Source: Lysobacteraceae bacterium
GTDB taxonomy: Bacteria; Pseudomonadota; Gammaproteobacteria; Xanthomonadales; Rhodanobacteraceae
NCBI GenBank assembly: GCA_028866435.1
Contig: JAGWIC010000002.1
Location: 1 to 64,000, forward strand
Direction: 5' to 3'
DNA length: 64,000 nt
The notes under the pieces were generated by a model. The model was not told the DNA's origin, ran no database searches, and saw nothing but the letters and a program-made list of their open reading frames with translations. Shown here piece by piece: positions 18,722-34,050 of this stretch. Positions within the stretch are counted from its first letter, which is position 1. Each line of letters opens with the position of its first letter. A program made the translations under genes and the position numbers.

Positions 18722-18823
18722 GCCCGCCGAGGGGCGCTGCGACCGTTGGTGAACACGGAGCGATCCGATGACTGATCACCACAACGGCCAGGCTCGGCGC
18801 GGCACGTTCCACAACGGCGCTCT
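18722..18823 (+). ncRNA. S-adenosylhomocysteine (SAH) riboswitch
   Basis: The conserved core GCCGAGGGGCGCTGCGACC (18726-18744) matches the SAH-aptamer consensus. The 3' half, CCAGGCTCGGCG (18788-18799), closes a seven-pair P1 helix with CGCCGAG, and AACGGCGCTC (18813-18822) provides the pseudoknot strand pairing with GGGCGC. All parts are in the order known from SAH riboswitches upstream of ahcY in Proteobacteria. SAH binding turns expression on there, so the hydrolase is made when its toxic substrate builds up. The ATG at 18768 used by the ORF track lies inside the aptamer and is not the gene start. Confidence 0.9.
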
Positions 18824-18902
18824 GCAAGCGAGTCCCTTCGCGAGGAACCGGTCATCCAGGGCCGGGCTCTTCGCAAGGGCCTCCAACCAACCGGAGATAC
18901 CC

Positions 18903-20380: not shown

Positions 20381-20407
20381 GCGCGCAGCTCCGGCTGCGC
20401 GCTTTTT
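20381..20407 (+). terminator. Rho-independent terminator after ahcY
   Basis: An eight-base-pair GC-rich stem (GCGCGCAG / CTGCGCGC) with a six-base loop is followed by TTTTT. It lies 36 bases after the ahcY stop. Confidence 0.8.
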
Positions 20408-20752: not shown

Positions 20753-21811
20753 ATGACAGCGGCAACGACCACCCGCCTGCTTCCTCCGGAAGACTACCCG
20801 CACTGGGCCGCCGCGGTTGCGGCCTCGCCCGACGGCAGCGTCTATTCACTGCCCGACTACCTCGACTCACTCTGCATCGCCACGGGCGGGAGCTTCCGCG
20901 TGCTTGTCGCCGAGCACGACGGTCGCATCGCAGGTGGCGTCGCCCTGTTCGAGCGCGACAGCCGCTGGGGCACGTTCGTCTCGCCGCGACGGCTGCTTTA
21001 CTACAACGGACTGGTACTGGTGCCCCACACATCGAGCAGCCCGGGGCGCGTCGCCTCCTGGCGGCTGCGGACCCTGGACGCGCTGGAACGCGCGCTGGCG
21101 CAACTGCCGCACGGGCGCCTGCGATTCAAGAACCGCTCGACCTGTACCGACCTGCGGACATTCCAATCGCGCGGCTGGTCGGTGCAACCGACCTATACCT
21201 ACGTGGTGCATATCGACGACTTGCCCACCGCATGGGCACGCGTCGACAAGAACCAGCGCCGCCTGATCGCACGCTGCACCGAGCAAGGCTTGCGCCTTTC
21301 CAATGACGACGACTTCGACGCCTTCCATCGGCTGCACCTGCAGACCCATGAGCGCAAAGGCGCGCCGCTGTACCTGCCGCGGGAAAATTTTCTGCGCTTC
21401 GTCGAGACCCTGCGCGCCAGGAATCTGTGCCGTCTCTACCACGCGCGGCTGCCGAACGGACGGGTGGCGGCCACCCAGCTGGTGCTCACCGGACCTCATC
21501 CCGTCAGTCACACCGTATGCGCCGGCGCCGATGCCGAGTTGTTGAGCCTCGGTGCCGCCTCGTTCCTGCGCTGGAGGGTGCTGGAGGATCTGGCCGCGGC
21601 GGGATACCGCGCCAACGACCTGACCGACGCCGAACTCAACTCCGTCACCACATTCAAGTCTCAGCTCGGCGGGGAGCTGTCGCTGTGCCTGGAAGTATCG
21701 CGGCCCGACCACTGGCGCTTCCGCCTTGGCCAGCTGGCGGCGTCGCTGCCCCATCGGGCCCGCCACGGTGTGCGACGCGCACTGCAACGCTCCGCCGCGG
21801 GTTCGGCGTGA
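20753..21811 (+). CDS. FemAB/GNAT-superfamily acyl- or aminoacyltransferase-like protein
   Basis: This 352-residue protein starts after an AGAAAGGA ribosome site. The central region (about 160-320) resembles the FemAB-like/BioF2-type acetyltransferase fold: RVDKNQRRLIARCTEQGLRL, then LHLQTHERKG, GRVAATQLVL and LGAASFLRWRVLEDLAAAGY. Known FemAB proteins transfer amino acids from aminoacyl-tRNA to peptidoglycan, while related proteins are found in exopolysaccharide and exosortase gene clusters. The substrate here is unknown. Its stop overlaps the GTG start of the TPP enzyme (GTGA), so the two are translationally coupled. It is the first gene of a three-gene operon placed between ahcY and metF. 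Confidence 0.7.
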   Translation: MTAATTTRLLPPEDYPHWAAAVAASPDGSVYSLPDYLDSLCIATGGSFRVLVAEHDGRIAGGVALFERDSRWGTFVSPRRLLYYNGLVLVPHTSSSPGRVASWRLRTLDALERALAQLPHGRLRFKNRSTCTDLRTFQSRGWSVQPTYTYVVHIDDLPTAWARVDKNQRRLIARCTEQGLRLSNDDDFDAFHRLHLQTHERKGAPLYLPRENFLRFVETLRARNLCRLYHARLPNGRVAATQLVLTGPHPVSHTVCAGADAELLSLGAASFLRWRVLEDLAAAGYRANDLTDAELNSVTTFKSQLGGELSLCLEVSRPDHWRFRLGQLAASLPHRARHGVRRALQRSAAGSA

Positions 21812-23523
21812 GCGCGCAGCCGCTATCGGGCGCCCAGCTGATTTGCACTGCACTCCGGCGTGCCGGCATCGAGTGCGTGTTCGGCCTGCCGGGCACGCAG
21901 ACGGTGGCGCTGTACGAGGCGCTGCGCACTTCGTCGTTGCGCAGCATCGTGGCCACCCATGAACTGTCGGCGGCGATGATGGCCAACGGCTATTATCGTT
22001 CGTCCGGGCGGGTTGCCGCGCTGCTGACGATTCCCGGCCCCGGTTTCACCTGGGCACTGACCGGCCTGGCCGAAGCGGCGCTGGATTCGGCCGCGCTGCT
22101 GCACCTCACCACCCAACCGGCGCACGCGCCGGGGCAGCAGTTCCAGCTGCAGGCACTGGATCAGGCCGCCATCGCCGCGGCGCTGACCAAGGCCCAGCAC
22201 CGGATAGACCACGCCGACGAAGTGACCCCGGTGCTGACCATCGCGCACGCCGAGGCCTGCACCGGCGAACCCGGCCCCGTGCTGGTGCAGGTCGCCCGGG
22301 AGGCGTTGCGCGCGTCCGCGCCGCTGTCGGCCGCCATGACGGGCCCACCGGCACCGGCCGAAGCCGAAGTGGCCGCGCTCGACGCGACGGTGGCTGCGCT
22401 GAGCCAGGCCAGTCGCTGCGTACTGCTGCTGGGCCAGGGCTGCGCCGGCGCCGGCGCCGGCGAACCGGCCAGGCGACTGGCCGAAACCCTGTCCGCCGCG
22501 GTCGTCACCACCACCTCGGGACGCGGCGTGGTGGCCGAAGACCACCCCTTGTCGCTGGGCTTCGAGCTGGGCGGCAACGAATGCGCCACGCTGAACGCGC
22601 TGATCGAGGCCAGCGACCTGGTGCTGGCCGTCGGCTGCAAGTTCTCGCACAACGGCAGTCGCGGCTTCGAACTGCGGATAGCGCAGGACAAACTCATCCA
22701 CGTCGACGCCTGTGCCGACGTGCTGGGTGCAAACTACCCCGCGCGACACCTGATCCGCGCCGACGCCCCCACCTTCCTTGCCTCCCTGCTGCAGCGACTT
22801 GGCCCAGTCCCCCGCCCCGGCGGCTTCGGCGAGGGGGAAATCGCGCAATGGCGCGCACGCTGCCGCGCCGAGAGCCTGCACCACCGGGTCGAACCTCGCA
22901 TCCACGGCGTACCCTCGGGGCGGCCGCAGGCGTTCTTCGATGCGCTGCGCCACACCTTGCCCCGCGACGCCTGCCTGGTCACGGATTCGGGCCAGCACCA
23001 GGGGCTGGCACGGCGACACTTCCGCGTACTCTGCCCGCGTGGCTTGATCGTGCCGACCAATTTACAGTCGATGGGTTTCGGTATCAGTGCCGCGATCGGC
23101 GCCCGCCTCGCCAACCCGGATCGCCCGGTGGTGGCGCTGATCGGCGATGGCGGACTGGCCATGTCCGGGCTGGAGCTGCTGACGGCGGTGCGCGAGCGCC
23201 TGCGGTTGACCGTGATCGTGTTCGTCGACGGCGCCTACGGGTTGATCCGCATGCAGCAATTGGCCACCTCGGGGCATGTGTACGACACCAGGTTCAACGG
23301 CCCGGATCTTGCCGCCTTTGCGGCATCCATCGGCGCAACCCACATGCGTCTCGACGGCGCGCCGGAGACAACCCTGGCCACGGCAATCGCAGCACCGGGC
23401 GTGACCCTGGTCGAGGTGCGCGTCGGCGACACCCTGCCGATGCACTGGTTGCGTACCCGGAGCGTCGCACGCGGCGTGCTGGGATCGCGGCTGTTCGCCT
23501 GGCTGCGCCGTCAACGCGGTTGA
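21808..23523 (+). CDS. Thiamine-pyrophosphate enzyme, acetolactate-synthase-like
   Basis: The GTG at 21808 overlaps the preceding stop by four bases; the ORF-track frame begins further upstream at 21427. The 571-residue protein has the three domains of the AHAS/POX family: an N-terminal PYR domain with FGLPGTQTVALYEAL and the catalytic Glu (THELSA, residue 52), a central FAD/Rossmann-like domain, and a C-terminal PP domain with QSMGFGISAAIGA and the cofactor motif GDGGLAMSGLELLTAVRE through FVDGAYG. Cofactor residues look intact, so it should be active on a 2-oxo acid. Absence of an AHAS small subunit and partners in a FemAB/ATP-grasp operon argue against branched-chain amino-acid synthesis. 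The product is unknown. Confidence 0.8.
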   Translation: MSAQPLSGAQLICTALRRAGIECVFGLPGTQTVALYEALRTSSLRSIVATHELSAAMMANGYYRSSGRVAALLTIPGPGFTWALTGLAEAALDSAALLHLTTQPAHAPGQQFQLQALDQAAIAAALTKAQHRIDHADEVTPVLTIAHAEACTGEPGPVLVQVAREALRASAPLSAAMTGPPAPAEAEVAALDATVAALSQASRCVLLLGQGCAGAGAGEPARRLAETLSAAVVTTTSGRGVVAEDHPLSLGFELGGNECATLNALIEASDLVLAVGCKFSHNGSRGFELRIAQDKLIHVDACADVLGANYPARHLIRADAPTFLASLLQRLGPVPRPGGFGEGEIAQWRARCRAESLHHRVEPRIHGVPSGRPQAFFDALRHTLPRDACLVTDSGQHQGLARRHFRVLCPRGLIVPTNLQSMGFGISAAIGARLANPDRPVVALIGDGGLAMSGLELLTAVRERLRLTVIVFVDGAYGLIRMQQLATSGHVYDTRFNGPDLAAFAASIGATHMRLDGAPETTLATAIAAPGVTLVEVRVGDTLPMHWLRTRSVARGVLGSRLFAWLRRQRG

Positions 23524-23618
23524 CGCCGACAGCGGCCGCCATTGGCCTCCACCAGTGCTAGCATGACCCGACGTGCGCGGCATCGACGATGTACACGTCT
23601 GCCTTGGGGGGGAGTGCT

Positions 23619-24815
23619 ATGAGGACACAGGCGCAGCAGCGAACGCCGGCGATCGTGGTGGGTCGTGGCGCAACGGCACTGGGCATCCTGCGCTGTCTGG
23701 TGCTGGCAGGCATCCCCGCCTATGTGGCCTGCCCGCCGGGCGATCAGGTGAGCCGTTCACGCTGGTTCCGGCCAACCCCCGGTGCCGTGCCCTGGGACGG
23801 CAGCCTGGGACCGCGGGGCTGGGACGCGCTGCGCGACATGCCGCTGCCCGAGGCGGTGCTGATCGCCGGCGCCGACGATGCCGCGCTGTGGCTGGCGGAT
23901 CTGCCCGGCCATGACGTGGGCCGGCGCTTTCGCAGCAGCACCTGCTCTCGCCAGACCCAGGAAATCCTGCAGGACAAGTCGCGCTTCGCCGCCTTGCTGC
24001 GCGAGCTGGATATTCCTCATCCGCCCACCTTCAGCATCGAGTCGATCGCCGACATCGAGGCGATTCCCTTCGACCGGCTCGACCGGATTTTCATCAAACC
24101 GGTCAACTCGCAGAAGTTCAGCGACGTGCTGGGCGTCAAGGGCGTCTGGGTCAACGGCAGGGAGGAGTTGCTTGCGCAGTGGCAACGTCTGCACGCGCAA
24201 GGCTTCCAGCTGATGGCGCAGGAGTACGTTCCCGGCTCGGCGGCCGACCACTACTTCGTCGACGGATTCCGCGATGCCGGCGGCAAGCTGACCGGGTTGT
24301 TCGCGCGGCGGCGCTGGCGCATCCACCCCGCCGACTTCGGCAACAGTTCCTATTGCGAGAGCATCCCGCTGGCCGACGTGCGCGCACCGGTGGAAAACCT
24401 GGCCAGGCTGCTCGAAAAGGTCGATTACCGGGGCATCTTCAGTGCCGAGTTCAAGCGCGACCGCCGCGATGGCCAGTTCCGCATCCTCGAAGTGAACACG
24501 CGCGCCTGGACCTATGTCGAGTTCGCCGCGCGCTGCGGGGTCAATGTCTGCGAGATGGCATGGCAGGATGCGCTTGGACTGCCGGTGACGGTCGCGCCGG
24601 CAAACTATCCCGTCGGTGCCGGTTGCGCGGACCTGTATCGGGACATCCATTCGGTGCGGTCGCAGGACGCGGCGGCCCGCGGCCCGCTATCGAAGATCCT
24701 GCTGCAGTGGGCACGCGCCCACCTGCACTCCTTTCGCCTCGATGATCCCATCCCCGGGCTGTCATACGCATGGCAGGTGATGACCCCGCGGCTGAGGCGA
24801 GGCTCGGGCAACTAG
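23619..24815 (+). CDS. ATP-grasp domain protein (predicted carboxylate-amine ligase)
   Basis: The start at 23619 follows a very strong GGGGGGAG ribosome site; the track start at 23589 adds ten residues. The 398-residue protein has an N-terminal Rossmann-like pre-grasp domain (IVVGRGATALGILRCLVLAG), then ATP-grasp features: RIFIKPVNSQKF with the ATP-binding Lys, LMAQEYVPGSAADHYFVDGF, and the metal-binding end GQFRILEVNTRAWTY. It resembles stand-alone ATP-dependent carboligases found in polysaccharide and natural-product loci. Such enzymes activate a carboxylate as an acyl phosphate and join it to a nucleophile. A TAGCAT box at about 23558 may give it a separate promoter. Confidence 0.75.
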   Translation: MRTQAQQRTPAIVVGRGATALGILRCLVLAGIPAYVACPPGDQVSRSRWFRPTPGAVPWDGSLGPRGWDALRDMPLPEAVLIAGADDAALWLADLPGHDVGRRFRSSTCSRQTQEILQDKSRFAALLRELDIPHPPTFSIESIADIEAIPFDRLDRIFIKPVNSQKFSDVLGVKGVWVNGREELLAQWQRLHAQGFQLMAQEYVPGSAADHYFVDGFRDAGGKLTGLFARRRWRIHPADFGNSSYCESIPLADVRAPVENLARLLEKVDYRGIFSAEFKRDRRDGQFRILEVNTRAWTYVEFAARCGVNVCEMAWQDALGLPVTVAPANYPVGAGCADLYRDIHSVRSQDAAARGPLSKILLQWARAHLHSFRLDDPIPGLSYAWQVMTPRLRRGSGN

Positions 24816-25049
24816 CCCCGGCAGCCGTTTCAGCCGACCCGGGAAGCGGGGTCGGGCGGCCCACGGGCGCCGCCGAACGCCTGCATCCGCCGCAGCCAAA
24901 CCGACCCATGCCGTATCGACGACTGCCGGCAACGGCCCGCGGCGGCGCGTGTCTGGCGCGGATCGCTTGCGGTTTGCATGGCATTCGCGCCCGGCGAGGA
25001 AAATCGGTGTCGACGGTTATTTATATCGCTCCATCGCGACGCAAAGATA

Positions 25050-25055
25050 TATAAT
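25050..25055 (+). promoter_or_regulatory. -10 box of metF
   Basis: A perfect TATAAT lies 29 bases before the metF ATG, in an AT-rich island (TTATTTATAT...GATATATAA) that is unusual for this GC-rich window. It shows that metF has its own promoter rather than relying on ahcY. Confidence 0.65.
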
Positions 25056-32690: not shown

Positions 32691-33572
32691 CTATCGGCAC
32701 CGCAGCCGGGACTGCAGCAGCTCCACGATCGCCCCGGCCACGTCGACGCCGGTGGCCGCCTCGATGCCCTCCAGGCCTGGCGAAGCGTTGACCTCAAGCA
32801 GCAGGGGTCCACGCCTGGAGCGCAGCAGGTCGACACCGGCGATGCCAAGACCCAGCGCTGCGGCGGCGCGCACGGCGATGCGACGCTCTTCCGCGCTCAG
32901 CGCCACGGCGACGGCAGTACCGCCACGGTGCAGGTTGGCGCGAAATTCACCGGGACTCGCTTCGCGCTGCATCGCCGCCACGACCTGCTTGCCCACGACG
33001 AGGCATCTGAGATCGCAACCCTTGGCCTCGGCGATGAATTCCTGCACCAGGAAATTGGCGTACAGGCCGCGAAACGCCTCGATCACGCTCTGCGAGGCGC
33101 TGCGCTTCTCCGCCAGCACCACGCCGGCACCCTGGGTTCCCTCATTGAGCTTGATCACGTGCGGCGGCTCACCCAGCAGTGCCAGCACATCGGCACTGTC
33201 GTCCGGGTTGTCGCCGAACACGGTCACCGGCATGTCGATACCGCGGGAGGCCAGAATCTGCAGGGAGCGCAGCTTGTCCCGAGCCCGCAACACGGCATCG
33301 GAGGAGTTGGGGGTGTAGACCCCCATCATCTCCAGCTGCCGCAACACTGCCGTACCGTAGAAGGTGCTGGACGTACCGATGCGCGGAATCACCGCATCGA
33401 TGTCGCGCACCTCCTTGCCGTTGTAGCGGATCGCCACGGCGCCCGGCGCGATCCGCACGTAGCAGCGCAGAGGGTCGAGCACGCGCACCACGTGGCCGCG
33501 TACGCGCGCGGCCTCGACCAGCCGTTTGGTGGAGTACAGCCGGGTGTTGCGCGACAGGATCGCGATCTTCAT
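32691..33572 (-). CDS. rimK: RimK-family ATP-grasp alpha-L-glutamate ligase
   Basis: The 293-residue protein starts [20 protein letters not shown] and has the family motifs [40 protein letters not shown] (ATP-binding loop), [19 protein letters not shown] and [13 protein letters not shown]. RimK adds glutamate residues to the C-terminus of ribosomal protein S6, and some homologues act on other carboxylates. It lies ten bases downstream of a RimB-like protease gene, so the two probably form an operon. The pairing resembles the rimABK system of Pseudomonas, without an obvious rimA. Confidence 0.93.
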
Positions 33573-33582
33573 GCAGGGGCCG

Positions 33583-34050
33583 TCATCTGGGTTCGCCGGC
33601 CGTCGGCGACGGTCGCGACTGGGTGTAGGAAAGGGCCGGATCGAGCCGGAATCGCCCGCTCAACGCCGTGCGCCCGAGCAGCATCGGGAACAGCATGTGA
33701 CGACGATTGGTGAGATTGATATCGACGCTGAAGCATTGTCCGGCCAGCACCACTTCGCTGCGAATGAACCAGCGCTCGGTACGCCGGCCGCCGGTGTCGG
33801 TTACCGCACGCCGATCCAGTGCGGGCGCTTCGCAGTTCACGTTCCAGGGCTGGCGCCGGCCGTCGTGGATGCTGAAGCGCAACCAGGTCGCGCCCTCGCG
33901 TTCGAATGATTCGAGCGTGTCGACATGCAGGGAACTGCTGCGGGCGCCCGTATCGAGCTTGGCCTTGAGCTGGGCGATGCCCAGCTGCGGCAAGGCCAGA
34001 CGCTCCCGCCAACCCAGCGTCACGAGGGGCACGGTGATCGGATCCGCCAT
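33583..34050 (-). CDS. RimB-like retropepsin-fold protease (putative zinc protease family)
   Basis: This 155-residue protein contains [20 protein letters not shown], the D-T-G-A active-site motif of the RimB/Zn_protease family of small retropepsin-like enzymes, then [22 protein letters not shown] and [16 protein letters not shown]. In Pseudomonas, RimB trims the poly-glutamate added by RimK. Here it is encoded just upstream of rimK on the same strand, consistent with that role. It starts at 34050, 39 bases downstream of tRNA-Gly on the same strand; read-through from the tRNA promoter is possible. Confidence 0.85.

Follow-up and report, generated by a model that had tools for sequence, protein, structure and literature searches.

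Double-GNAT transferases of the FemABX type include FemX, Sba18, Sbb17 and Orf11 of the streptothricin-type antibiotics, and DhpH-C, none of which, to our knowledge, is coupled to a TPP enzyme. GNAT-fold proteins are also able to use donors other than tRNA. In acetolactate synthase, a TPP enzyme, the Arg of an RFDDR motif binds the second 2-oxo acid. The Lys of the FK motif is catalytic in FemX (Lys305) and in DhpH-C (Phe328-Lys329; PMC12945691). The locus described here, within a 64,000-nucleotide stretch of DNA that was analyzed as a whole (the window), places a FemAB-like gene and a TPP enzyme gene together with an ATP-grasp gene between ahcY and metF, and its features are as follows.

20381..20407, + strand: intrinsic terminator of ahcY, GCGCGCAGC-TCCG-GCTGCGCGC-TTTTT, from sequence and fold (z = -2.5)
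20753..21811, + strand: FemAB-like double-GNAT transferase, 352 aa (PF13480, E 8e-15), FK motif at residues 301-302
21808..23523, + strand: TPP-dependent 2-oxo-acid enzyme, 571 aa, GTG start, all three TPP domains
23556..23564, + strand: extended -10 element TGCTAGCAT ahead of the ATP-grasp gene, from its conserved position
23606..23614, + strand: GGGGGGGAG, strong ribosome-binding site of the ATP-grasp gene, from the sequence
23619..24815, + strand: ATP-grasp carboxylate-amine ligase-like enzyme, 398 aa, best start 23619
25020..25055, + strand: conserved metF promoter-like block, ATCGCTCCATCGCGA...AGATATATAAT, from sequence comparison

The three genes sit between the ahcY terminator and the conserved metF promoter-like block. 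The original prediction held that all three are intact, that FemAB and TPP are translationally coupled, and that the ATP-grasp gene follows with a strong ribosome site, and each of these points is confirmed. The FemAB stop and the TPP start overlap by four bases (GTGA, 21808-21811), and the ATP-grasp start lies 95 bases beyond the TPP stop with its ribosome-binding site directly ahead of it. For all three genes dN/dS is ~0.09-0.41 among genus members, and this purifying selection means that the genes are not decaying. Elsewhere in the window (32691-34050, - strand) lie a RimK-like ATP-grasp gene and its small partner, both named from sequence only; this ATP-grasp gene is unrelated to that of the trio.

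The proposed search for co-occurrence of the three families in other genomes revealed a true association, seen in seven genomes that represent four genera and two families, and we conclude that the trio is a genuine, rare, and modular association of known enzyme families. FemAB orthologues are found in six of 234 family genomes (the window, G003, G005, G028, and G818 and G854 of two other genera), with one further case, G326, in another family among 369 genomes of the class and no other case of the set in a draw of 399 phylum genomes. FemAB and TPP share a four-base overlap, GTGA or ATGA, in 7/7 of these genomes, and in 7/7 the ATP-grasp gene adjoins them, in tandem in the window's genus and divergently in G326, G818, and G854. 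ATP-grasp orthologues (57-76%) are present in 45 of the 234 family genomes, 39 of them without FemAB, and they are mostly solitary, with unrelated surroundings in most other genera. If the two genes were independent, the probability of finding ATP-grasp in 6/6 FemAB genomes would be ~4e-5, an arithmetic that ignores relatedness, and adjacency in two gene orders adds to the evidence for non-independence.

The trio is not fixed, however, since ATP-grasp occurs far more often without FemAB (45 versus 6 of 234), FemAB stands alone in two Thiocapsa species, and two relatives have an NRPS-like gene in place of FemAB as the partner of TPP. In Thiocapsa imhoffii and T. marina there is a FemAB orthologue (47-51%) with no TPP or ATP-grasp gene within 8 kb, and the only ATP-grasp elsewhere in the T. 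marina genome is a 27% match. As judged by sequence, the lone FemAB gene follows a B12-binding radical-SAM-like gene in both species (L002:6056-9047 and L003:6061-9035), with a small reverse-strand gene between them.

Catalytic residues are kept in all three proteins. The FemAB model is a confident double GNAT (pLDDT 87.5) whose top solved folds are Sba18 (TM 0.66/0.81) and FemX (0.69/0.61), with Sbb17 also matched; Sba18 and Sbb17 are aminoacyl-tRNA-dependent transferases that were solved with streptothrisamine. Its F301-K302 pair lies in an FK...G motif that aligns with the FK of 6snr and of Sba18, K302 is invariant in 21/21 homologues, and by alignment it is the counterpart of FemX Lys305 and DhpH-C Lys329. 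The FemAB protein is predicted to be aminoacyl-tRNA-dependent. In the TPP enzyme the catalytic Glu52 and the GDG446-448 cofactor motif are invariant, and the nearest solved enzymes are AHAS I (6lpi, the best match) and BbmA/CsmA. It scores below all curated cut-offs, including that of acetolactate synthase (TIGR00118, 282.8 versus 538.35 bits), and the stretch aligned with RFDDR reads KFSHN, so that on these scores and motifs it is not a standard acetolactate synthase. The ATP-grasp model (pLDDT 92.9) has a biotin-carboxylase/Ddl/CPS-type fold, with fold matches at E 1e-15. Its Lys120, Lys160, and Arg295 are invariant, Glu277 and Glu291 are kept in at least 90% of cases, and the ExNxR of residues 291-295 is retained, and we predict that it is carboxylate-amine ligase-like.

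What these enzymes might act upon is suggested by where they are encoded. Outside the window's genus the full set sits among surface-polysaccharide genes. In G326 the neighbors are a NusG-like protein, an undecaprenyl-phosphate sugar transferase, a GT4 glycosyltransferase, a second FemAB-like protein, a flippase, a heparinase-like protein, a polysaccharide deacetylase, and two amidotransferases of the AsnB type that are relatives of the XrtA amidotransferase. Those in G818 are an O-acyltransferase, a sulfotransferase, and a polysaccharide deacetylase, and those in G854 a TIGR04325 methyltransferase, a GINT1_N-GT2 glycosyltransferase fusion, and a sulfatase-fold protein. The ATP-grasp genes of G829 and G830 are flanked by relatives of the deacetylase (53-57%), the sulfotransferase (58%), the acyltransferase (65%), the glycosyltransferase (34-50%), and the sulfatase-fold protein (49%), and the commonest neighbors at ~35 distant ATP-grasp loci are GT4 glycosyltransferases (14 ORFs) and polysaccharide deacetylases (6). 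The neighborhoods examined in the window and its genus contain no glycan genes flanking the trio.

We tentatively propose that the trio acts in tailoring, by making a small (amino)acyl group and attaching it through an amide bond, most likely to an amino sugar within a surface glycan, a reading that we regard as quite possible, if short of probable, and favor over the alternatives considered below. The TPP enzyme would make a 2-hydroxy or 2-oxo (acetolactate-like) acid, or would decarboxylate a 2-oxo acid. The ATP-grasp enzyme would convert the carboxylate to an acyl phosphate and then join it to an amine, and FemAB would take an amino acid from aminoacyl-tRNA and place it on the amine of the molecule to be decorated. 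This acceptor would most likely be an amino sugar, either in a surface polysaccharide or in its lipid- or nucleotide-linked precursor, and in loci with the full cluster its amine would be freed by the polysaccharide deacetylase. The acceptor may be the same in the window's genus. The original prediction, in which the three enzymes make, ligate, and transfer a small acyl or aminoacyl group, for example to a surface polymer, remains the best fit because of the polysaccharide genes that surround the set outside that genus. Weighing against glycan decoration are the lack of glycan genes beside the trio in that genus, the many solitary ATP-grasp orthologues of the family, and the wider donor range of GNAT-fold proteins.

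The TPP gene also occurs with a different partner. G815 and G829, of the same genus as G818, have a TPP orthologue (60-65%) near the ATP-grasp gene, and no FemAB orthologue in these genomes passes E 1e-20. The gene 5' of TPP instead encodes an NRPS-like A-PCP-TE protein (PF00501, PF00550, PF00975), which in G829 is coupled to TPP by an ATGA overlap. These partners of the TPP orthologue, present in place of FemAB, are:

L164:8011-10821, - strand: NRPS-like A-PCP-TE gene
L165:1645-4566, - strand: NRPS-like A-PCP-TE gene

The Asp of the adenylation A4 motif (FDxSxxEIF) normally binds the alpha-amino group, and the corresponding region here, TTTHAIYELFEPL, appears to be without the usual Asp; by these motifs, the substrate might be a hydroxy- or keto-acid. 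The exchange of partners itself suggests that the role of FemAB is the loading or transfer of an (amino)acyl group. An IS30-like transposase gene, a putative assignment, lies within the polysaccharide cluster of G829 (L165:7087-8055).

These pairs bear on the strongest alternative, that the module makes a soluble peptide-like molecule in which an unusual hydroxy- or keto-acid from the TPP enzyme is extended with amino acids by ATP-grasp and FemAB, as in non-NRPS natural products. Pairing with an A-PCP-TE protein would suit such a product, as would the fact that ATP-grasp enzymes are common peptide ligases, but the trio is not accompanied by any gene for transport, regulation, or resistance and the NRPS-like/TPP pair of G829 itself adjoins glycan genes, and we consider a soluble product credible but unlikely. 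Glycan decoration can also be drawn more narrowly: a branched hydroxy or keto acid from the TPP enzyme may be joined to an amino sugar, as a pseudo-peptide, by ATP-grasp and a tRNA-dependent FemAB, the latter being replaceable by A-PCP-TE, such that loading by tRNA and by carrier protein would be interchangeable. Taken in all its parts, this version is rather unlikely.

A second alternative is that only FemAB and TPP form a functional pair and that ATP-grasp is an independent accessory gene, often a neighbor by chance, for which its distribution among the 45 sampled genomes of the genus has to be considered. All three genes lie beside metF in 4/45 (the window, G003, G005, and G028), although ahcY is not upstream in G005 and G028, where the trio and metF are kept. 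TPP orthologues that are 74-82% identical occur in exactly G003, G005, and G028, and other TPP relatives in the genus search are at most ~41% identical. Six members (G010, G027, G034, G061, G062, and G066) have ATP-grasp alone, without FemAB or TPP, in the same interval by ahcY and/or metF, and in G903, of another genus, ahcY, ATP-grasp, and metF stand in a row, likewise without FemAB or TPP. The remaining members with both flanks in the fetched locus have neither ATP-grasp nor the FemAB-TPP pair, with gaps down to 210 bases, and in several relatives ahcY and metF are a short-gap pair separated by 210-361 bases. The trio is thus patchy across the genus, and trees did not separate gain from loss of the FemAB-TPP pair within it.

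The ATP-grasp gene appears, in addition, to have its own promoter. Each of the four genus members with the trio has the TGCTAGCAT element ~60 bases 5' of the ATP-grasp start, and variants of it (TGgTAGCAT, TGCTAGgAT, TGCTAatcT, and TGCTAGgcT) are found in a similar place in 5/6 of the genomes with ATP-grasp only. One-mismatch matches to TGCTAGcAT are not rare by chance in the 64-kb window, and the promoter reading, which we consider probable, therefore rests on conserved position. It follows that FemAB-TPP and ATP-grasp are probably two transcription units. The three-gene operon originally suggested stands as to adjacency and the FemAB/TPP overlap, and probably not as a single transcription unit; one fixed operon is rejected, given that ATP-grasp usually occurs without FemAB and TPP and has this element of its own. 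The same element and the many solitary ATP-grasp genes, in the family and in the six genus members, are what would be expected of a chance neighbor. Against this, ATP-grasp is present in every family genome with FemAB and in G326, and is adjacent in all seven in two orders, and we judge a functional pair without ATP-grasp to be improbable.

An insertion into the ahcY-metF interval, as had been suggested, finds support in the empty and ATP-grasp-only intervals of relatives and gains nothing from composition: GC and GC3 fall inside the range of the neighboring genes or near it, which gives no support to an insert of foreign composition. A role in anti-phage defense (zero PADLOC matches) and plasmid-borne copies (plasmid matches of only 24-28%) were also considered and rejected. 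In G027 a gene for a TraG/VirD4-like type IV secretion coupling protein lies between ahcY and the ATP-grasp gene (L057:3303-8062) and, going by this similarity, points to the integration of a conjugative element there.

The flanking genes appear to be controlled separately from the trio. The ahcY terminator is a perfect 9-bp GC stem followed by T5, and the claim that the trio lies after a terminator is borne out by this sequence and its fold; a consensus terminator scanner missed it, probably because its search for the stem extended into the T run. The block upstream of metF (ATCGCTtCATCGCGA...AGATATAtaCT, ending 29 bases before the metF start in the window) is kept in almost every one of 29 genus members, independent of the gene further upstream, and ends in TATAAT/TATACT. 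Its general form is ATCGCT(T/C)CATCGCGA...AGATATAtA(C/A)T, with an inner inverted repeat TCGC...GCGA. From its sequence this block probably serves as a promoter and includes a site for a regulator. The proposal that metF has its own promoter accordingly holds for this conserved block, while a sigma-70 scan found no full promoter upstream of metF. A SAH riboswitch (RF01057, 56.7 bits; window 18723-18829, + strand) lies just 5' of the likely ahcY start, overlapping the first start of the longest ahcY ORF, and six related loci also have one in front of ahcY. That the trio serves the methyl cycle, as its location and this riboswitch might suggest, is highly improbable, given the terminator and the separate promoter-like blocks that insulate it and the absence of ahcY and metF near the same genes in other genera.

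Were glycan decoration correct, the trio would add a tRNA-dependent and thiamine-dependent route to bacterial surface-glycan chemistry, and the occurrence of either FemAB or an NRPS-like module beside the same TPP gene would be a natural comparison of two ways of loading an (amino)acyl group. An ATP-grasp subfamily that is present in about one fifth of the sampled family genomes also gains a testable function.

While the enzyme families are known, their combination is apparently undescribed, and the earlier view that no described system has this exact trio agrees with our search of open-licence papers, in which no description was found. The XrtA/PEP-CTERM exopolysaccharide cluster (L060), seen in G009, resembles the locus in that distant FemAB (TIGR03019) and ATP-grasp homologues, each 24% identical, occur together in one cluster. 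It differs in that the stretch read contains no TPP enzyme, there is no exosortase near the trio, and the window FemAB scores 42.7 bits against a TIGR03019 cut-off of 260.35. The FemABX transferases share the double GNAT and the FK...G catalytic Lys, yet the window FemAB is only 14-19% identical to them and, unlike them, is coupled to a TPP enzyme. The AHAS large subunits provide the best solved match (6lpi) and share the three TPP domains and the catalytic Glu, but the TPP enzyme reaches only about half the AHAS cut-off score and has KFSHN for RFDDR. Lastly, the PRK12767/carbamoyl-phosphate-synthase-like ATP-grasp proteins (2pn1) have the same fold and ATP/Mg residues, whereas the ATP-grasp of the trio, at 38.9 bits against a cut-off of 218, forms its own subfamily.
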